NCBI GenBank assembly: GCA_016188005.1
Contig: JACPIQ010000014.1
Span: forward strand, 1-64,000
DNA: 64,000 bases
Direction: 5' to 3'
Source of the DNA: Candidatus Rokuibacteriota bacterium
GTDB lineage: Bacteria > Methylomirabilota > Methylomirabilia > Rokubacteriales > CSP1-6
Below the pieces are notes generated by a model, which searched no databases, was not told the origin of the DNA, and saw only the letters and a program-made list of their open reading frames with translations. Made by a program: the position numbers and the translations under genes. Below, in pieces: positions 48,998-59,006 of this stretch. Numbering within the stretch: position 1 is the first letter of the stretch; the number at the start of each line of letters is the position of its first letter.

Positions 48998-49001
<4 letters not shown>
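48120..49001 (-). CDS. PhnD/PtxB-like phosphate/phosphonate ABC binding protein
   Basis: The 293-residue exported protein has a Sec signal (cleavage near AGAAEQ) and the PhnD fold: LIIALTPSRDPSALQEAGEAF, GVPVRAQVASDYAGVVEALRSRRVDLAFVHPVGY, VDPASSSGFIYP and a C-terminal domain. It would bind an oxyanion such as phosphonate or phosphite. No permease or ATPase gene lies nearby. It is coupled to the upstream NtrC-type regulator by ATGA, so it may act as the periplasmic sensor of that regulatory system instead of a transporter component. Confidence 0.85.
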
Positions 49002-50452
<1,451 letters not shown>

Positions 50453-50464
50453 GGGGACTCGGAG

Positions 50465-51937
50465 CTACTGCCGCTCGGGGGCCTTGAGGACGACGTACTC
50501 GTAGGCCCCGCCACCCCGCTGGACGTAGACGGGGACCACCTCCCCGGGCTTGACCGAGGCCATGATCCGGCGGAAGCTCACCAGGTCGGCCACCGTCTGG
50601 CGATTCACCTCGAGGATCGCGTCCCCTTGTCGGATGCCGGCCGCCGCGCCCGAGCTGCCGGGCACCACCTCCGTCACCACCACGCCCGCCCTCGCCGACA
50701 GGCGGAAGCGCTCTGCCGCCTCGGGGGTCAGGGACTCGACGGTGAGCCCGAGGCTCTCCTCCTTCTGCAGCGCGGCGACAGGGATCTCCTCGCCCGGCTG
50801 CTCGCCGATCTTCACGCTGAGCCGCGCCGGCCTGCGGTCGCGGATCACGGCCAGCGCCGCGGGATATCCGGGGGCCACCGCGGCGACGCGCTTCTGGAGG
50901 TCGGTGATGTCCTTGATGGCGGCGCCCGCGAACTCGACGATGACGTCGCCGGGCTTCATGCCGCCCGCCTCGGCGGGGCTCCCCACCATCACGTCCGAGA
51001 CGAGGACCCCGTGGGCTGCGGACAGGCCGAACCCCGCGGCCAGGTCGTCGGTGAGGTCCTGGATGACGATGCCGAGCCACCCGCGGACCACCCGCCCCCT
51101 GGCGATGAGCTGCGCCATGACATCACGGGCCATGTTGACGGGGATCGAGAAGCCGATCCCCTGCCCGGTGGCGACGATGGCGGTGTTGATGCCGATCACC
51201 CGCCCTTGCAGGTTGAGCAGCGGCCCGCCGGAGTTCCCGGGATTGATGGAGGCGTCGGTCTGGATGAAGGCTTCGTAGGTGGCCACGCCGACCCGCGTGC
51301 GCCCGGTGGCCGAGATGATGCCCACCGTCACCGTCCGGTCGAGCCCGAAGGGGTTGCCGATGGCGATGGCCCACTGCCCGACGCGCAGGGCGTCGGAATC
51401 GCCCAGCGCCGCCACGGGCAGCGAGGCGGGCGGCGCCTCGATCTTGAGCACTGCGAGGTCGCTCTTCGGGTCCCGCCCCACGAGCGTCGCCTTGAACTTG
51501 CGATCGTCGGAGAGGCGCACCTCGATCTCCGCGGCGTTCTCCACGACGTGGTTATTGGTCAGGATGTAGCCCTGCCGATCCACGATGACGCCGGAGCCCG
51601 CGGCGCGTCCCTCGTCCCGGGGTCCCCGGCGACGGAAGTAGCGGTCGAAGAACTCGGGCCCGAAGTACTCCTTGAAGCGCTGCTCGACGTCGGGCCCCTC
51701 GCCGCTCTCGGAGGGCGCCGCCTTCCTGGGCTTCACGCTCACGTTGACCACGGAGGGCATGACGCGGTCGGCGACCGAGACGAAGGCGCGCTCCAGCGCC
51801 TGCAGCACGCGCTCGGGCTCGGCCGCCGCCGGCCCCTTCGGCGGGGGCCCCGTCTGGGCCGACACCGTCACCGCCGACAGCAGGGCGGCGGCGAGAAGGA
51901 GGACGGGGTGCAGCAGCGCGCTCCGACGCAGGCTCAT
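50465..51937 (-). CDS. DegP/HtrA-family periplasmic serine protease
   Basis: The 490-residue protein has a Sec signal (cleavage near SAQT), a trypsin-like domain with His in LTNNHVVENA, Asp in SDLAVLKI and Ser in INPGNSGGPLLN, and two PDZ domains (about 280-370 and 390-480). It degrades or chaperones misfolded envelope proteins. I use ATG 51937 (MSLRRSALLHP) with GGAGAGAG upstream; ATG 51958 would add seven residues. It lies 12 bp upstream of the NtrC-type gene and 22 bp downstream of tilS. Confidence 0.94.
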   Translation of the reverse strand: MSLRRSALLHPVLLLAAALLSAVTVSAQTGPPPKGPAAAEPERVLQALERAFVSVADRVMPSVVNVSVKPRKAAPSESGEGPDVEQRFKEYFGPEFFDRYFRRRGPRDEGRAAGSGVIVDRQGYILTNNHVVENAAEIEVRLSDDRKFKATLVGRDPKSDLAVLKIEAPPASLPVAALGDSDALRVGQWAIAIGNPFGLDRTVTVGIISATGRTRVGVATYEAFIQTDASINPGNSGGPLLNLQGRVIGINTAIVATGQGIGFSIPVNMARDVMAQLIARGRVVRGWLGIVIQDLTDDLAAGFGLSAAHGVLVSDVMVGSPAEAGGMKPGDVIVEFAGAAIKDITDLQKRVAAVAPGYPAALAVIRDRRPARLSVKIGEQPGEEIPVAALQKEESLGLTVESLTPEAAERFRLSARAGVVVTEVVPGSSGAAAGIRQGDAILEVNRQTVADLVSFRRIMASVKPGEVVPVYVQRGGGAYEYVVLKAPERQ

Positions 51938-51959
51938 GGCTCTCTCTCCGGCGGCCATC

Positions 51960-53387
51960 TTACTCCGGGGGCGTCGGCATCGCCAGCGTCCCGCTGAGTG
52001 TCACCTCCAGGATACGTCGGGTGTCCGGTGTCACGGGCGCCGCTCGGCCGCGCCGCAACCCCGCCACCCACAGGATCTCGCCTCCGGTCTCGAGCAGCGG
52101 GATCCGGTCGCGCTCCCAGCGCGGGATTCCCGCCTCCATGAGGAAGGCCTTCAGCCGGCGCTGGCCGGGTCCGCCGAAGGGCGCGAAGCGGTCGCCGGGC
52201 CGGCGCCCGCGGACGGTGAGGTCGGCGGGCAGGCGGTCGGCGTCGAACACCACCGTGCGCGGGCCGGGCGGTGGCAGCCACCCGGGCGGCCGGCTGAGAC
52301 TGCGGGCCTCGAGCGAGAGCCCCACCTCGGGGAGCGCGATGGCCCCGGGCAGCCGCCAGGAGCGCGCGACCAGGCTCGCGCCGCCGGGGAGCCCGATGCG
52401 CAGCCAGCCGCCGCTGCGCTCCAGGGCCATCGCTCCCAGGCGGACCTGACGGCCCGGCGCGGCGGGGTCCAGCAGCTGACGGAGCGCGCGGTGCGCATGG
52501 GCGCGGAGCGGCGTGGCCACGCCCAGCCGCAGGAGCGCGCCGCGCAGGACCCCGGCGGCCACCTCCCCGGGCAGCGCCGCCAGGGCCGCGGCCGGCAGCA
52601 GGAGCCCCGACTCGCGCGCCTCGGCGAGTCGCCCGAGCTCCGCGGCGGCCCGCGCGTCGAGCCCCGAGACAACCTCGCGGGCGACGGCGGCGCCACGACA
52701 GAGGGCGCGGATCACGTCGGCGTCATAGGCCTCGGCGAGAAACGGGAGCACCTCGTGCCGGATGCGGTTGCGGAGGAAGCGCGGATCGCGGTTGCTCCTG
52801 TCCTCGACCCAGGGGATGTCGTGGGCGCGCAGGTGGGCCTCGATGGTCCGCCGCGGCGTCTCGAGCAGCGGCCTGATGTACGGACCCCGCCTGGCGGGAA
52901 TGCCGGCCAGCCCCCGCGGTCCGGCGCCCTCGAGGAGGCGCATGCAGACGGTCTCGGCCTGATCGTCGGCGGTGTGGCCGGTGGCCACCCGGGAGGCGCC
53001 GAGGGTGGCCGCCCGCGCGGCGAAGGCCGCGTAGCGGGCGCGCCGCGCCGCCGCTTCGAGCCCTTCGCGCCTCGCGCCGCGGTCGTCGGGCGCGGCCACG
53101 CTGACGCGCGCGACGTGGGCGGGGACACCCCACCGGCCGCAGAGATCGAGCACGAAGCCCGCCTCCTCGTCGGCCTCGGGGCGGAGGCCGTGGTGCACGT
53201 GAAGGGCGTGGAGCGTCAGCCGGAGCGGTGGCGCCAGCAGGTGGAGGAGGTGGAGCAGGGCCACCGAGTCGGCGCCGCCGGACACGGCCACGAGCACGGT
53301 CTCGCCGCCCGCGACCAGGGCATGGCGCCGGATGGTGGCGAGAGCGCCGTCGGCGAGGCTCCCCCGGGCCGTCAGCGGCTGCGGCAC
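51960..53387 (-). CDS. tilS: tRNA(Ile)-lysidine synthase
   Basis: TilS converts C34 of tRNA-Ile with anticodon CAU to lysidine, letting it read AUA. The PP-loop SGGADSVALLHLLH (about residues 36-49) binds ATP, GHTADDQAETVCMRLLEG and DRSNRDPRFLRNRIRHEVLP are strongly conserved, and a C-terminal TilS domain follows (RPGDRFAPFGGPGQRRLKAFL). The 475-residue length is normal. It is a single-copy essential gene in most bacteria. The tRNA at 61053 also has anticodon CAT. Confidence 0.95.
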   Translation of the reverse strand: MPQPLTARGSLADGALATIRRHALVAGGETVLVAVSGGADSVALLHLLHLLAPPLRLTLHALHVHHGLRPEADEEAGFVLDLCGRWGVPAHVARVSVAAPDDRGARREGLEAAARRARYAAFAARAATLGASRVATGHTADDQAETVCMRLLEGAGPRGLAGIPARRGPYIRPLLETPRRTIEAHLRAHDIPWVEDRSNRDPRFLRNRIRHEVLPFLAEAYDADVIRALCRGAAVAREVVSGLDARAAAELGRLAEARESGLLLPAAALAALPGEVAAGVLRGALLRLGVATPLRAHAHRALRQLLDPAAPGRQVRLGAMALERSGGWLRIGLPGGASLVARSWRLPGAIALPEVGLSLEARSLSRPPGWLPPPGPRTVVFDADRLPADLTVRGRRPGDRFAPFGGPGQRRLKAFLMEAGIPRWERDRIPLLETGGEILWVAGLRRGRAAPVTPDTRRILEVTLSGTLAMPTPPE

Positions 53388-53423
53388 TGGCGCCCCGGCT
53401 CAGGCATCGGCGGGCCACCCGCC

Positions 53424-53566
53424 GGGCGGGGCCGGGGGCGCGCTCCCCGGAACCGTGGCTTCTGCGTGCTGCCAGAGCGGAAAACCGTCCTGTCGTGGCC
53501 CGTCATGGGAGGGCGCAACGTGTTGCGAGGGAGCGTGTTCCGGGGAGCGCGCCCCCGGCCCCGCCC
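53424..53566. repeat. Perfect 30-bp inverted repeat enclosing an 83-nt loop
   Basis: The 30 bases at 53424-53453 are the exact reverse complement of 53537-53566. The stem contains GGGGCCGGGGGCGCGCTCCC. The 83-base loop has no gene but contains a smaller hairpin, CGCAAC/GTTGCG (53514-53527). The element lies in the 241-bp gap between the end of the moaD-moaE gene and the start of tilS. No target-site duplication is apparent. It could be a MITE-like element, a large structured RNA or a transcription barrier; I do not recognise a family. Confidence 0.8.
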
Positions 53567-53628
53567 TCCGCAGGGACCGGATCTTTCAGGAGCGGCGGTT
53601 GGGCGCCCGTTGCCATGGGCAGTCCGCG

Positions 53629-54330
53629 TCAGTGTCGATGGTCACACTCGGACTGGAGGCCCACCCAGACCCCGCCGTCCTCGAAGTACTCCTTCTTCCA
53701 GACCGGCACCGTCTCCTTCAGCGTGTCGATGGCGAAGTGGCAGGCCTCGAAGGCCTCGCGCCGGTGCGCCGAGGAGACCGCGATGAGGACGCTCGACTCG
53801 CCGATCTCGAGCCGGCCCACGCGGTGCGCGAGGGCCACCTTGCGCACGCCTGGGAAGCGGGCACGCACCGCGGCGGCGATCTCCCGCATCTTGGCGACAG
53901 CCATGGGGGCATGGGCCTCGTACTCGAGGAACTTGACCCGCCGGCCACCCGTCTCCTCGCGCACCACGCCCGAGAAGAGCACAATGGCGCCGGCGCCCGG
54001 ATCCTCCACCGCGCGGACCAGCGCCGGCTCGGAGAGGGGCGCGGCGGTGACCTCCACGAGATCCGCCGGGGGCGTCGCTCCGGCGGCCCCGCCGCTCACG
54101 GGCGGGAAGAGACAGAGCTCGTCCCCGGCCTTGAGGGCGTGCTCGGGGGCGACGTAGTCATTGCCCACGGCGAAGAGCGTGAAGGGGCGATACACCGCGA
54201 GCGCCGGGAAGCGGCTCGTCACCGCCTCCCAGGCGGCCTCCACGGTGCCACCCTCGGGGAGATCCAGCTCGACGCGGGCGTGGCCCGCCGCCTCGCGGTA
54301 GCGGGCGAACAGCCGCACCAGCACCTTCAT
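53629..54330 (-). CDS. MoaD-MoaE fusion: molybdopterin synthase, both subunits in one chain
   Basis: The 233-residue protein joins a MoaD domain (residues 1 to about 81, ubiquitin-like fold, ending LFPPVSGG) to a MoaE domain (about 95-233; FSGVVREETGGRRVKFLEYEAH, HRVGRLEIGESSVLIAVSS and the catalytic Lys pair in VPVWKKEYF). In normal synthase, MoaD must end in a free Gly-Gly that receives sulphur as a thiocarboxylate and inserts it into precursor Z held by MoaE. Here the Gly-Gly (80-81) is internal, so cleavage after Gly81 would be required, as described for MoaX of mycobacteria. It sits near the ErpA-like gene, whose Fe-S supply may serve MoaA-type enzymes elsewhere. Confidence 0.9.
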   Translation of the reverse strand: MKVLVRLFARYREAAGHARVELDLPEGGTVEAAWEAVTSRFPALAVYRPFTLFAVGNDYVAPEHALKAGDELCLFPPVSGGAAGATPPADLVEVTAAPLSEPALVRAVEDPGAGAIVLFSGVVREETGGRRVKFLEYEAHAPMAVAKMREIAAAVRARFPGVRKVALAHRVGRLEIGESSVLIAVSSAHRREAFEACHFAIDTLKETVPVWKKEYFEDGGVWVGLQSECDHRH

Positions 54331-54350
54331 GAGCCCGCCCGGCCGGGCGC

Positions 54351-54677
54351 CTAGAACTGGTGGGAGGCGCCGCAGCCGCAGGACGACTTCACGTTGGGAT
54401 TGTTGATGGCGAAGCCGGCGCCAAGCATGTTGTTGTCCACGTAGTCGATCTCGCTCCCCGCGAGGTAGGGGGCGCTCTTGCTGTCCACGAGGACGCGGAC
54501 CCCGTGGGACTCGATGACGCTGTCGTCGGCGGCGGGCGTGTCGTCCCAGCCGAGCTCGTACGACATGCCCGAGCAGCCGCCGCCCACCACGCGGATGCGC
54601 AGCCCCCACTCGGGCTTGCCCTCCTCGATGCGCAGATCGGTGATCTTCTTCGCCGCCGTCTCAGTCAGACTGACCAT
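54351..54677 (-). CDS. Iron-sulfur cluster insertion protein of the ErpA/IscA family
   Basis: The 108-residue A-type carrier has the three conserved cysteines: GGGCSGMSYEL (Cys about 35) and SCGCGASHQF (the C-terminal Cys-Gly-Cys). It receives and inserts Fe-S clusters into target proteins. Its ATG is preceded by AGGAGGCGTGA. An extended -10 promoter lies 50 bases upstream. It is transcribed ahead of the moaD-moaE gene. Confidence 0.93.
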   Translation of the reverse strand: MVSLTETAAKKITDLRIEEGKPEWGLRIRVVGGGCSGMSYELGWDDTPAADDSVIESHGVRVLVDSKSAPYLAGSEIDYVDNNMLGAGFAINNPNVKSSCGCGASHQF

Positions 54678-54727
54678 TCACGCCTCCTGGGAGTCGCAGG
54701 GGTGACCGGGCTCGCGACACCGCAGTC

Positions 54728-54733
54728 ATTATA
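54728..54733 (-). promoter_or_regulatory. Extended -10 promoter element of the erpA-like gene
   Basis: The minus strand reads TGGTATAAT, a perfect TATAAT box (54733-54728) preceded by the TG dinucleotide of extended -10 promoters. No good -35 is present, which is normal for this promoter type. Confidence 0.6.
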
Positions 54734-54776
54734 CCAGAGGCCCCCGGAGCGCCATGTCCGAGGCCCCCGGGGAGCC

Positions 54777-55493
54777 TCAGAGCACGCCCCCGGCAGGCAG
54801 GAGCGTGATCTCCTCCAGCGCCGCCGTGGGCGCTTGCGCGGCCATCAGGAGGGCCGCCTCGGCCACCTGCTCGGGGCGGAGCATCCGGGCCCGATCCGGG
54901 GGGCTCGGCACCGCGTCCCAGAGGGCGGTGTCCACGGCCCCGGCGGAGAGCACCCCGACGCGCACGCCATGGGGGCGGAGCTCCTCGGCCAGGACCCGGG
55001 CCAGCCCCAGGAGGCCGTACTTCGAGGCCGTGTAGGCCGCCGAGCCGGGTAGCGTGCGGCTCGTCACCACGGAGCCGATGAGGATGATCGTCCCGCTCCG
55101 CTGCTGCACCATGGCGGGCAGCACCGCGCGGCAGCAGAGGAAGGGAGCGCGCAGGTTCACCGCCATCATCTCATCCCAGTCGGCGGTCGCCGTCTCGGCC
55201 AGCGGGCCGAAGGCAGCCGCCCCCGCAGCGGCCACCAGGAGATCGATGCGCCCGCAGGCCTGCAGCGCGCCCCGCACGAGCGCGGCGACGGCCGGCTCCT
55301 GCCGCACATCCGTCGGGATCGCGACGGCCCGGCCGCCGGCGCCCTCGATCTCGCGCGCCACCGCGTCGAGCTCGTGCGCCGTGCGCGCCGCCAGCACCAC
55401 GGCCGCGCCCTCACGGGCGAAGCCGCAGGCGACGGCGCGGCCGATGCCGCGGCCGGCGCCCGTGACCAGCGCGACCCGCCCGCCGAGCTTCAC
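54777..55493 (-). CDS. Short-chain dehydrogenase/reductase (SDR)
   Basis: The 238-residue SDR has the NAD(P)-binding VTGAGRGIGRAVACGFAREGA (residues 10-30), the AAAGAAAFGP strand and the catalytic Ser in LIGSVVTS with Tyr-x-x-x-Lys in YTASKYGLLGLARVL. It directly follows the GTP cyclohydrolase I gene. In tetrahydrobiopterin synthesis the last steps after GTP cyclohydrolase I and 6-pyruvoyl-tetrahydropterin synthase are done by an SDR (sepiapterin reductase); an equivalent role is plausible but the sequence alone is generic. Confidence 0.88.
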   Translation of the reverse strand: MKLGGRVALVTGAGRGIGRAVACGFAREGAAVVLAARTAHELDAVAREIEGAGGRAVAIPTDVRQEPAVAALVRGALQACGRIDLLVAAAGAAAFGPLAETATADWDEMMAVNLRAPFLCCRAVLPAMVQQRSGTIILIGSVVTSRTLPGSAAYTASKYGLLGLARVLAEELRPHGVRVGVLSAGAVDTALWDAVPSPPDRARMLRPEQVAEAALLMAAQAPTAALEEITLLPAGGVL

Positions 55494-55518
55494 GGGCGGC
55501 CCCGCGAGCCCCGACCCA

Positions 55519-57096
55519 TCACACCATGGGCCCGCCGCGCGACTTGATCAGCTCCATGAACTCGGCGCGCGTCTCGGGGCGGGCCCTGAACGCGCCGAGC
55601 ATGGCGGAGGTCACCGCCTTCGAGTTCTGCTTCTCCACCCCGCGCATGAGCATGCACATGTGGAGCGCCTCGATCACCACCGCCACCCCGCGGGGCCGGA
55701 GCACCTCGTCGATGGTCTGCGCGATCTGTGTCGTGAGCCGCTCCTGGACCTGGAGCCGCCGGCTGAACATCTCCACGAGCCGCGGCATCTTCGACAGCCC
55801 GACGATCTTCTTCGACGGCATGTACGCGATGTGGCACTTGCCGAAAAATGGAAGGAGATGATGCTCACAATTATGCGTCAGGTGGCCGCCGATCAGGAAG
55901 GTCGGATACGGGGCGCAGGTGATGCTGTACACCGCATGCGGCTTCCTGGCGGTGGGAAGATGCCGCACGTCCACGACCGTGGCGTACGCGCTGTCGAACG
56001 GCACGTAGAACTCGCTCTCCTGACGGAAGCCGTGCCTGCCGTACCAGCCCTGCTGGTGCCAGCGGCCCGACACGTAGACCCTGAAGCAGTCGGCCGTCCC
56101 GTTGCCCGCGGGCGCGACTCCGGTGCCCAGGTATTGGGCGAGATCCTCCAGGAAATCCCGGTTCGCGCTCACGATGAAGCGACCGGAGGAGCCGACCGCG
56201 TACCCGTCTCCGTCGCAGTAGCCGTCGAGGAAGCCCTGCATCATTTCCCGGGAGGAGGTCACGACCCTGGGAAATCTGAAGGATTTCGTCTTGCTCCGGG
56301 ATCCTGTCTCCGAGACGCCGAGCCAGCGGCACAGCTTCTGTCCAACGTGCCGCGAGACGACGCGGACACGATGCATCAAGACATCTCTTCGGAGAAAACT
56401 GGATGGCACCGTCACGGGCTCCACGGTGGGCGTCGTGGACGGAAAGGCCTGAGCGAACAACTCCCGGTACTTCTCGGCGAAGGCAGGGCTCTTGACGGTG
56501 AGGCAGATCCGGCGGCCGTCCTGGATGCTGCCGTCTGCCGCCGTCGCGCCAATCACGTACCCGAGGGCGTAGCCGGGTTGCGGCTCGTGAACGTCGCGGC
56601 AGAGCGAGCGAGGGTTGATCCACTCGACGCGGGCGCCCTGCTTCAGGTCTCCGGCCTCGCACCAGCCGGCCTCCGTCATGACGGGGTGATCCGGGGTCAC
56701 CTGGAAGCGCCCGCCCTCTGTCCTGACCTCGACGATATCCCGGGTCTTCCGCGACGTGACGGCCGTGACCTGAGTCTCCTTCAGATATCCGCGATCGAGC
56801 GTCCACAGGCGGTCCCCGGGCACGACCTCCCGGGCCGGCTTGGCGCCAGTCACGGCGTCCACGACCTGCTTGCTCGGAACGCAGAGGCTGAAGAAGTCGA
56901 TGTCCTTGACGATGACCATCTCGTCGTACTGCTCGGTGAAGAGCGCCTCGTTGAGCAGCGCGCGCGCGTCCTGCTGATAGCCGGAGGTGAGGTACTGGAG
57001 GGCCTTCGCGACCCGCGCGGGCGTCTTGTCGAGCCCCTCGCGCGACGGGTCCTGTCCCAGCTCCTTCAGCAGATCGCGGATCACCTGCTCGAGCAT
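55519..57096 (-). CDS. folE: GTP cyclohydrolase I interrupted by an in-frame intein
   Basis: The 525-codon frame encodes FolE in two exteins: residues 1-71 ([14 protein letters not shown] to IDFFSL) and 410-525 ([21 protein letters not shown] onward). Joined, they give a 187-residue enzyme of normal length with the zinc/active-site motif [21 protein letters not shown] and [10 protein letters not shown]. FolE converts GTP to dihydroneopterin triphosphate, the first step of folate, queuosine-like or tetrahydropterin pathways. Residues 72-409 are an intein whose removal is needed for activity, since it separates SL from the zinc-ligand Cys. GAGGTGA precedes the ATG, 4 bp after the PTPS paralogue. 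Confidence 0.95.
55870..56883 (-). mobile_element. Intein with LAGLIDADG homing endonuclease inside FolE
   Basis: This 338-residue segment begins with Cys72 ([13 protein letters not shown]) and ends with [11 protein letters not shown] (His408-Asn409), followed by Cys410 as the +1 residue. This is the textbook class 1 intein layout: block A Cys, block B TPDHP (134-138), penultimate His-Asn, and a Cys nucleophile after the splice site. Two dodecapeptides are visible, [13 protein letters not shown] (178-190) and [14 protein letters not shown] (285-298), so a two-motif LAGLIDADG endonuclease is present; the second Asp-rich motif and Asp188 could be catalytic. GC and codon use look lower than in the exteins, consistent with horizontal origin. 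Confidence 0.95.
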
Positions 57097-57100
57097 GCCG

Positions 57101-57517
57101 TCACCTCGCCCTCTCGCCCCGGTACTCGAAGGCGTTGTTGTCCGTCTCGATCACCACGACGCGCGCGAGGCTCCCCGGCGGCAGGGCGGGCTCGAGCCAC
57201 TGCCAGAAGGCGCGGGCCAGGTTCTCCCCGGTGGTGATGACGCCGTCGAGGGCCGGCACCGTGCTCGACAGGTCGTGATGATCCACCCGCTCCAGGATCA
57301 CTCGCCTCACCGCGGCGTCCAGCGCCCCCAGGTCGGCCGCCATGCCCGTCTCCGGATCCGGGCGTCCCGCCACCGTCACCTCGATGCGATAGTTGTGGCC
57401 GTGCTGCCGGTAGCACGGCCCGTAGACTCGCGCGTTCTCGCCCTCCGAGAAGGCCGGGCTCGCCAGCCGGTGCCCGGCGCTCAGGCGATAGGCGCGCGTG
57501 AGCCTGAGCCCGCTCAT
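57101..57517 (-). CDS. 6-pyruvoyl-tetrahydropterin synthase/QueD family, paralogue with catalytic Cys
   Basis: The 138-residue enzyme has zinc-binding His in SAGHRL and HGHNY, preceded by the candidate nucleophile Cys in [13 protein letters not shown] (about residues 31-43), and [15 protein letters not shown] with ETDNNAFEY near the end. This family makes 6-pyruvoyl-tetrahydropterin or 6-carboxy-tetrahydropterin from dihydroneopterin triphosphate, the product of FolE. It is the immediate upstream neighbour of folE in the same operon and overlaps its paralogue by ATGA. Confidence 0.9.
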
Positions 57518-57927
57518 GGGCCGAAGTACTCCGCGTTGAAGTTGGGGTCCTCCCAGAGGCGCAGGCCGTGGAGGCGCTCGCCCCCGAGCTTGGGGGCGAG
57601 GAGGTCCCAGATCGCGCGGACGAGGTTCTCCGTGGTGGGGACCTTACGGCCGGCGAAGAGCGGATCGGCGCTGAGGTCGGCGTGGTCGAAGCGCGACAGG
57701 ACCAGATCCCCCACCACGCGCTTCAGCTCGCCGAGATCCGCCACCATCCCCGTGCGGGGGTCGACGGGGCCGCCGAGCGTGACCTCGAGCACGTAGTTGT
57801 GGCCGTGGGTCACGGTGAGCGGGCCGAAGACGCGCACGTTCTCCTCGCCGCTCCACTCCTGCCGCCAGTAGCGGTGGGCCGCGGAGAACGTGAACTTGCG
57901 CGTGACGTACACCGGGCCTTCCGTCAT
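57514..57927 (-). CDS. 6-pyruvoyl-tetrahydropterin synthase-like paralogue lacking the catalytic Cys
   Basis: This second PTPS-fold protein (137 residues) keeps the zinc-binding SAAHRY and HGHNY but reads VFGPLTVTHGHNY, with Leu in place of the catalytic Cys. Other motifs (GMVADLGELKRVV, PTTENLVRAIWDLL, and NFNAEYFG) are retained. The change suggests another reaction or a structural/heteromeric role with its neighbour. Coupled to the glycosyltransferase by ATGA. Confidence 0.88.
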   Translation of the reverse strand: MTEGPVYVTRKFTFSAAHRYWRQEWSGEENVRVFGPLTVTHGHNYVLEVTLGGPVDPRTGMVADLGELKRVVGDLVLSRFDHADLSADPLFAGRKVPTTENLVRAIWDLLAPKLGGERLHGLRLWEDPNFNAEYFGP

Positions 57928-59006
57928 GTGGCTCCGGCCCCTCCCGCATGTGATCTTACCGCGTCCAGGAACTGCTGCGCGATCCGCTCTGGCGTGAACT
58001 TGGCCGCGCGCCGCCGTCCTGCCTCCCCGAGCTCGCGCGCCCGCCCGGCGCGCTCGAGCAGATCGGCCAGCGCCACGGCCAGCGCCGCGGGGTCCCTGGG
58101 CGGGACGAGCACCCCCGTGCGCCCGTCCAGCACCACCTCGGGTACCGCCGCCGCGCGACAGGCCACCACGGGCAGGCCCGCCGCCATCGCCTCGAGGAAG
58201 ACCATGCCGAACCCCTCCTGGACGCTCGGGAGACAGAAGCAGTCGGCCCCCATGTACTCCTCGGCCAGCCGCTCCCGCGAGAGGTCGCCCAGCAGGGCCA
58301 CCGACTCGCCGAGGCCGAGCTCTCCGTGCAGGCGCACCAGCGCCTCCCACTCGGGACCTCTTCCTACGACGCGGACCCGGGCCGCGGGGATTCGCTCCCG
58401 GAGCCGGGCCGCGGCGTGAAGCAGGTCGGCGATGCGCTTGCGCGGGTACTGGCGGGCGACGCAGAGCACGACGGGCCCCGCGCCTGAGCCCCGCGCCGCG
58501 CGGGCGAACAGCGCGCGCCACCCCTCGAGGTCGATCGCCTCCGGCACCACCGCGAGCCGCGAGTCGGGGACGCCGTACTCGTCCCGCGCCACGCCGGCGG
58601 AGTAGCGGCTGGGCAGGACGACCAGGTCGGCGCGCGCCGCGTTCCGGAGCTCCCAGCGCGCCTGGACGCCGAGGAGAATCCGCACCCAGCCCCGCTCGTT
58701 CTTCAGCTCGTCGGCGATGATCCCCTTCAGCATCGCGACGAAGGGGACGCGCCGGCGGCGGGCCCAGAGGAAGCCGTCGAGGTCGCAGCCCAGCACCAGA
58801 TCCACGCCGCGCGGAGGGGAGAGCGCCACGCCTGCGTTGTAGAGCCAGCGGTCGAGGGTGTGGAAGCCGGTGCGGAGGCGAAGGGGGCGGAACTGCACCT
58901 CGTGTCCCAGCCCGGTGAGCCCCCGCGCGAGGGCGTCGAGGCTCGTGAACGTGCCGCTCCCCTCCAGCGGATCGAGCGGGGTGGAGGAGAGGAGGGCGAT
59001 GCGCAG
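57924..59006 (-). CDS. GT4-family glycosyltransferase, probable CTG start
   Basis: The 360-residue GT-B enzyme has the C-terminal signature EGFGMVFLEAMAAGLPVVA (about 285-303) and RGPEWEALVRLHGELGL. Its N-terminus RIALLSSTPLDPLEGSGTFTSLDALARGLTGLGHE is typical of this family and is in frame only if translation starts at CTG 59006, four bases after the stop (TAG) of the upstream hydratase; the next GTG (58898) would remove 36 conserved residues. It transfers an activated sugar; the acceptor is unknown. Its presence in a pterin operon is compatible with a pterin glycosyltransferase but that is speculation. Confidence 0.86.
   Translation of the reverse strand: MRIALLSSTPLDPLEGSGTFTSLDALARGLTGLGHEVQFRPLRLRTGFHTLDRWLYNAGVALSPPRGVDLVLGCDLDGFLWARRRRVPFVAMLKGIIADELKNERGWVRILLGVQARWELRNAARADLVVLPSRYSAGVARDEYGVPDSRLAVVPEAIDLEGWRALFARAARGSGAGPVVLCVARQYPRKRIADLLHAAARLRERIPAARVRVVGRGPEWEALVRLHGELGLGESVALLGDLSRERLAEEYMGADCFCLPSVQEGFGMVFLEAMAAGLPVVACRAAAVPEVVLDGRTGVLVPPRDPAALAVALADLLERAGRARELGEAGRRRAAKFTPERIAQQFLDAVRSHAGGAGAT

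Follow-up and report, generated by a model that had tools for sequence, protein, structure and literature searches.

The inverted repeat between tilS and moaD-moaE

The window analysed here, a stretch of 64,000 nucleotides from a Candidatus Rokubacteria MAG (the own genome, G000), carries tilS and a moaD-moaE fusion gene, and between them an inverted repeat (Table 1). The first-pass annotation had described perfect 30-bp arms around an 83-nt loop between these two genes, and arms, loop and neighbours all proved exact. When mismatches were allowed, the arms extended to 43 nt (53411-53453/53537-53579) with 86% complementarity. The RNA fold of 53395-53600 reached -137.1 kcal/mol on the + strand as compared to a shuffle mean of -111.3 (z -5.3; 0 of 200 shuffles equal), and the - strand (z -5.5) also beat all 200 shuffles. 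No transposase ORF was apparent in 49000-58000, as had been observed earlier, and no sigma-70 promoter patterns were found around the element.

The second hairpin claimed within the loop, P2, stood in part. Pairing of 53457-53462 with 53474-53479 holds in 95.8% of the cells across 20 own-genome copies, but none of its pairs changes on both sides and the outermost pair in the window copy is G-G. The putative P3 is likewise free of two-sided covariation and is lost in the shorter of the distant copies described below. The CGU/GCG pairs atop P1 are invariant in the 20 copies and near-invariant in 32 diverse copies.

Elsewhere in the window, a GTP cyclohydrolase I gene (55519-57096, - strand) carries an intein-like insert: PF01227 is found in two stretches, and the insert contains a LAGLIDADG-like domain (PF14528), with Intein_splicing under its cut-off. 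A 6-pyruvoyl tetrahydropterin synthase-like gene (57101-57517, - strand; PF01242) adjoins it.

Table 1. Features of the tilS-moaDE region (window positions; for the core and its parts, + is the strand on which the core fold is selected)
Feature	Positions	Strand	Evidence
Conserved core (repeat unit), 143 nt	53424-53566	+	R1 match 132.2 bits, model 1-143; G002 ortholog 93% identical
P1 stem, 5' arm, perfect 30 bp	53424-53453	+	Complementarity; covariation in 20 copies
P1 stem, 3' arm, perfect 30 bp	53537-53566	+	Complementarity; covariation in 20 copies
CGU capping P1, paired with GCG 53533-53535 beside bulged U 53536	53454-53456	+	
GCG and bulged U, partner of 53454-53456	53533-53536	+	20-copy and 32-copy comparisons
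Hairpin P2 with conserved GGCUUCUGCG	53457-53479	+	Sequence conserved; no two-sided covariation
Putative P3 (weak), UCGU 53493-53496 with GCGA 53525-53528	53493-53528	+	95% of cells paired
Possible decayed IS630-type left terminal repeat	53388-53409	+	12/22 letters, chance level in window copy
Insertion region, 298 nt unaligned to the G001 tilS-moaE junction (23 nt there)	53360-53657	.	
tilS, flanking gene	51960-53387	-	Pfam ATP_bind_3, TilS_C, TilS
moaD-moaE fusion, flanking gene	53629-54333	-	Pfam ThiS 6-82, MoaE 95-207

A dispersed family with IS630-type ends

Search of the own genome and its relatives revealed that the repeat is multi-copy. A DNA search of the own genome listed 28 matches, including 22 at distinct sites (about 50-180 bp, mostly 70-85% alike, self-palindrome hits excluded). 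A covariance model (R1), built from an alignment (A1) of 20 own-genome copies, found 20 clear copies there (at least 110 bits, the window copy counted), one more that scored 68 bits (C116) and a small number of weak or partial matches, and it matched 21 of 119 genomes. A broader model (R2), built from 32 sequences, matched 37 of the 57 searched genomes of the own family, in 15 of 24 genera, and, in the rest of the phylum, none of the 38 genomes searched; G025 matched R2 only in the family search and not in that of the phylum outside the family. The R1 and R2 genome searches used stricter filters, with which weak matches can be lost, and the match counts per genome, up to 39 (G019), may include both strands of one palindrome. 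An exact 18-mer of the core occurred in 33 named stretches, 21 of which belong to Candidatus Rokubacteria or Methylomirabilota MAGs; the remaining 12, in unrelated genomes, had no R1 match and were therefore treated as chance. Rfam returned only sub-threshold matches for the window region (best mir-1295, 28 bits against a gathering score of 100), no match in 10 loci and none at E 0.1 in 4 loci, and none of the papers listed dealt with a repeat or RNA motif of this kind in Rokubacteria or Methylomirabilota.

The copies compared below are the best of ranked lists: 89 near copies from nine genomes, R1's 20 among them and the partial copies L143 and L144 excluded, and 47 distant copies from fourteen genomes, from which L117, located where L250 is, and L267's reverse match were excluded. 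Twelve of the 47 distant copies also belong to the R2 training set. Reverse-strand matches of the same palindromes were excluded from the end and mismatch counts. Mismatch and context counts were unweighted for relatedness and, since the copies are related, are not independent.

An assembly foldback would fit the position of several copies at contig ends and the arm of L017, which extends into gene sequence. The window copy, however, lies inside a 64-kb contig with a conserved loop between its arms, and since 19 further clear copies of the core exist in the own genome, and another at the orthologous locus in a second assembly, this explanation can be given practically no weight. In L017 itself (1-318, at the start of contig C30 of the own genome), the palindrome continues about 90 nt into gene-like sequence and the arms differ; at this contig end it could be a real inverted duplication, or a foldback combined with strain variation.

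The best-preserved copy, L129 of G002 (G001 and G002 belong to the own genus), runs from CTAGTGTCCTGTCTCAGAAGTTC to its near inverse over about 219 bp, has CTAG on both sides, and aligns over most of its length with several other copies at 84-91%. The terminal repeat lies at an offset from the core of 38 (left) and 36 (right) that is fixed in G000, G002, G020 and G023. Ends with at least 14 of 22 letters were present (left/right) in 8/7 of 21 copies of G000, 6/5 of 16 of G002, 1/4 of 10 of G020, 4/1 of 4 of G023, 1/0 of 3 of G001 and 1/0 of 2 of G069, as compared to 0.9% of shuffled flanks. They were scarce in G004 (0/1 of 10) and G076 (1/0 of 22), and none was seen in the 4 copies of G003 or in 12 distant single copies, and hence these other copies may move differently. 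The terminal ends are decayed in most copies but the core is not. In the window copy they match at 12 and 10 of 22 letters, which is chance level, while the side of the G002 ortholog (L141) matching the left one scores 14/22. The earlier observation that the window copy shows no target duplication was upheld, its ends being decayed.

Such ends flank DDE_3 transposase genes in L209 (G020) and L196 (G019), which are IS630-type transposons of about 1.2 kb, autonomous elements in other genera. A terminal end adjoining a partial core was found in G027. Thus, the family shares its ends with an IS630-type transposon in several genera (G000, G002, G020, G023), and has both dispersed copies and empty sites in relatives. 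No IS630 gene with matching ends was found in the own genus (G000, G001, G002), where one DDE_3 gene is present in G000 without visible matching ends, and none in G001 or G002. Reportedly, IS630 has a preference for CTAG. Stop codons 25-40 nt from the core were TAG in 28 of 44 cases as compared to 13 of 36 in window genes (p 0.024); TAG accounted for 27 of 100 stops in the G000-G002 loci, tip stops included and the copies not being independent. IS630-family elements are described as inserting at TA (PMC2170065). Outside the Rokubacteria family, short palindromes, about 165-175 bp long and bearing TAGTGTCCTG ends, were seen in L195 (1501-1672, G052), L189 (1501-1674, G041) and L193, and are likely further MITEs with the same kind of ends and a different inside.

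At the tilS-moaDE locus, the element is present in G000 and G002 and no other of the seven genomes compared. The tilS and moaE matches lie 23, 36, 12, 46 and 75 nt apart in G001, G003, G020, G023 and G076, respectively, and 282-342 nt of the window are unaligned at the junction in these five relatives, the joints being only approximate. For the freshest copy, L129, no filled/empty pair was found among the matches listed in relatives; those listed in G000 and G001 extend over the element plus a gene-family stretch, but not over its flanks as a locus.

In G002, the flanks of the locus match in reverse and the core matches forward, and thus the core is inverted between two sister species. Inversion was clear in two of eight ortholog pairs (window/L141 and L024/L131), and five were not inverted (L016/L130, L022/L139, L027/L133, L152/L170 and L011/L143, the element being partial in the last). 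L159/L171 appeared inverted, with flank alignments too poor to count. A misassembled loop might conceivably mimic inversion; the perfect arms, however, are no longer than about 30 nt. Coding flanks of the ortholog pairs were about 80-95% identical (BLAST).

Compensatory changes and strand polarity of the core

Across the 20 own-genome copies, pairing holds in 96.7% of the cells, and two-sided changes occur in 17 of the 42 pairs. None of 500 shuffles gave a comparable number and six slid versions gave 3-8 pairs, confirming that compensatory changes, as looked for in a structured RNA, exceed those of the controls. All 17 pairs lie in P1, with P2 and P3 contributing none. Among the 89 near copies, the 23 pairs with the highest mutual information were again all in P1, and no covariation inside the loop was found among the top pairs. 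Arms differing without compensation had been named beforehand as evidence against the repeat; between copies the differences are mostly compensated, whereas in the ortholog L141 they are partly uncompensated, its 30-bp stem having, as read from the sequence, one wobble and two mismatches.

The residual mismatches are polar. The 30-nt arms of the 89 near copies contain 2530 Watson-Crick cells (96%), 61 G.T, 7 A.C and 34 other, and the outer arms also lean to G.T (1298 Watson-Crick, 94 G.T, 55 A.C, 252 other). In the arms of the 47 distant copies we counted 1259 Watson-Crick, 37 G.T, 14 A.C and 95 other, 79 of these last being G.A or A.G, mostly in tandem beside GACC/GGUC; the outer arms of these copies (100 G.T vs 95 A.C) showed no polarity. 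Polarity was opposite in the near copies of G023 (1 G.T vs 4 A.C) and did not reach significance in an initial 14 distant copies (12 vs 5, p 0.14). An excess of G.T over A.C on one strand signifies that a folded single strand is selected. Polar wobble pairs therefore show selection of the + strand as a single strand, and its form is most likely RNA. The polarity of near copies is weaker where both neighbours are antisense (9 G.T vs 4 A.C, as compared to 55 vs 3; p 0.018), a hint that transcription from the neighbours matters. A distant subfamily (L235-L267) has tandem G.A beside GACC/GGUC and private arms, and often ends GTAG...CTAC at a stop codon (L246, L264, L119 and L250).

A plain MITE free of RNA function, whose arms are kept and core flipped by template switching of DNA and whose loop is conserved through recent spread only, has to be weighed against these data. 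It would account for core inversion at two of eight ortholog pairs, and for the arms of the distant copies, which outside the core are private to each copy and yet complementary (own mean score 6.3 vs 0.7 for crossed flanks). Such repair of a DNA palindrome, however, would treat G.T and A.C alike, which is at odds with 61 vs 7. Nor does recent spread fit the loop, as CCGU, CUUCUG and AGCGUG are kept in nearly all of the 32 diverse copies aligned, including those whose stems have no common sequence, or the orthologs, where the core is 0.85-0.93 identical in seven pairs as compared to 0.45-0.89 for the adjacent 45 nt (lowest in L159/L171). We consider a plain MITE unlikely.

Strand polarity would be equally expected if the selected form were a single-stranded DNA hairpin, recognised by a protein of transposition or recombination in the way that RAYT reads REP hairpins. 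Close pairs of copies also recall BIMEs: 13 of the 14 seen are head to head, the exception (L164) lying at a contig end. RAYT (PF01797), the one HUH or recombinase family covered, was present in 11 of the 57 family genomes but absent from the own genome and from the copy-rich G019, G026, G063 and G005, and a DNA hairpin as the selected form appears quite improbable. The head-to-head pairs are L013, L148, L149, L155, L156, L160, L162, L165, L166, L168, L184, L240 and L241. In G020 and G076, each of ten pairs consists of one member from each of two clades of the tree, which suggests a composite unit.

Genomic placement, interpretation and known systems

Gene neighbours were called by a codon-score script of our own, not by published software for gene finding; negative values occur among the distances. 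Among near copies with two called neighbours (80 of 90), 37 were in convergent, 23 in codirectional, 17 in antidirectional and 3 in divergent gaps; the corresponding numbers for distant copies (46 of 47) were 16, 7, 20 and 3. Divergent gaps held 6 of 126 copies, as compared to 25 of the 138 gaps that served as background for these loci (p 0.0009). Copies avoid divergent gaps and tend towards the 3' ends of genes. Of 46 distant copies, 36 have their 3' end directed at the stop codon of a gene on the opposite strand, and antidirectional exceed codirectional placements in this set (p 0.019). Tandem near copies showed no orientation preference (codirectional 23 vs antidirectional 17), which counts against a simple 3'-UTR role.

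Positions at gene 3' ends and in convergent gaps are also those of an ordinary transcription terminator between genes. However, no intrinsic terminator (a G+C hairpin followed by a T run) was found in 53300-53720, a terminator has no need of a conserved 83-nt loop, and just two of the seven genomes compared have the element at tilS-moaDE. An ordinary terminator is accordingly very unlikely; Rho-dependent or T-less termination at the element is still conceivable.

Of the types first suggested for the repeat, namely MITE, cassette remnant and structured RNA, the first and the last apply together. It is MITE-like in view of the empty sites in relatives, the IS630-type ends on well-preserved copies and the dispersed copies, and its core is a structured single strand in view of the compensatory changes and strand-polar wobble pairs. 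An integron cassette remnant found no support, five relatives being without the whole element at the locus. We therefore favour, with a probability of roughly 0.6, the reading that the window repeat is an old copy of an IS630-type MITE family with a conserved structured-RNA core in Rokubacteria.

The intact unit in the own genus is the 219-bp MITE, CTAG...CTAG, on which an IS630-type transposase presumably acts in trans. Its target would be TA, in many cases that of a TAG stop codon. With G as its first letter and C as its last, the element would restore TAG on both sides when inserted at TA, and the genes would survive. After insertion the transposon ends decay, and the inner 143 nt are kept as a folded strand with a stem of at least 30 bp, the CGU/GCG cap with its bulged U and the conserved CUUCUG hairpin. 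Selection acts on the + strand of the core as a single strand, most likely as RNA, and the core can become inverted relative to its flanks, as in two of eight ortholog pairs. From its location, the likeliest role, still a tentative one, would be that of an RNA element at transcript 3' ends that stabilises, processes or ends transcripts.

A further reading, possible but doubtful, takes the core as a new structured-RNA class, older than its IS630-type ends and so far found only in this Rokubacteria family. Its mark would be a near-invariant cap (CCGU..CUUCUG / AGCGUG, with the bulged U) on a stem of free sequence, joined by tandem G.A in the distant subfamily, and it would probably have a protein partner or a role in 3'-end processing. 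Such a core might have multiplied on IS630-type ends in some lineages and by a structure-directed route in others, for example by insertion into terminator hairpins, which would give each copy its private arms; core inversion would then set which neighbour gets served.

Bacterial MITEs are often regarded as remains of insertion sequences. Here, the ends decay and a strand-specific inner fold is kept by compensatory mutation, and 15 genera of a single family retain the cap motif. The repeat therefore lends itself to studying how a functional RNA arises from a mobile element, or was its starting point. In addition, the polarity of residual mismatches (G.T vs A.C) provides a cheap test of folded-strand selection against DNA palindrome correction, which is applicable to other palindromic repeat families.

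Since the repeat resembles RUP, Correia and ERIC elements in parts, the RAYT test failed and no Rfam family reached its gathering score, we file it as a new IS630-type MITE family; as compared to IS630-type MITEs, its novelty is that the inner fold, and not the ends, is the conserved part. RUP of Streptococcus pneumoniae is described as a MITE attributed to IS630-Spn1 with TA targets (PMC2229807), and shares with our repeat its short intergenic form and its ends like those of an IS630-family element; insertion at TA would be a further likeness. No functional motif is reported in that account, whereas in our repeat several genera keep the inner fold even as the ends decay. Correia/NEMIS elements of Neisseria, compared by description only, are similar in that hairpin-forming MITE transcripts, processed by RNase III, and inversion are described (PMC2229807; PMC10969869). 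The review consulted places Correia elements immediately upstream of genes, in contrast to the Rokubacteria copies, which avoid divergent gaps. ERIC of enterobacteria (about 127 bp, palindromic, with an orientation-dependent effect on mRNA stability at 3' ends; PMC2229807; PMC10969869) is alike in size and palindromic form, again by description only, and strand-polar compensatory evolution such as that of the Rokubacteria core is not described in those accounts. REP/BIME palindromes lie at gene 3' ends and are described in head-to-head pairs (PMC2817692), as here, but the Rokubacteria unit is much longer, and identity with them was rejected on the absence of PF01797 from the own genome and the four copy-rich genomes. 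By analogy with the stem-loop-replacing transposition of IS1272 (PMC5678879), structure-targeted insertion would explain the private complementary arms of the distant copies.
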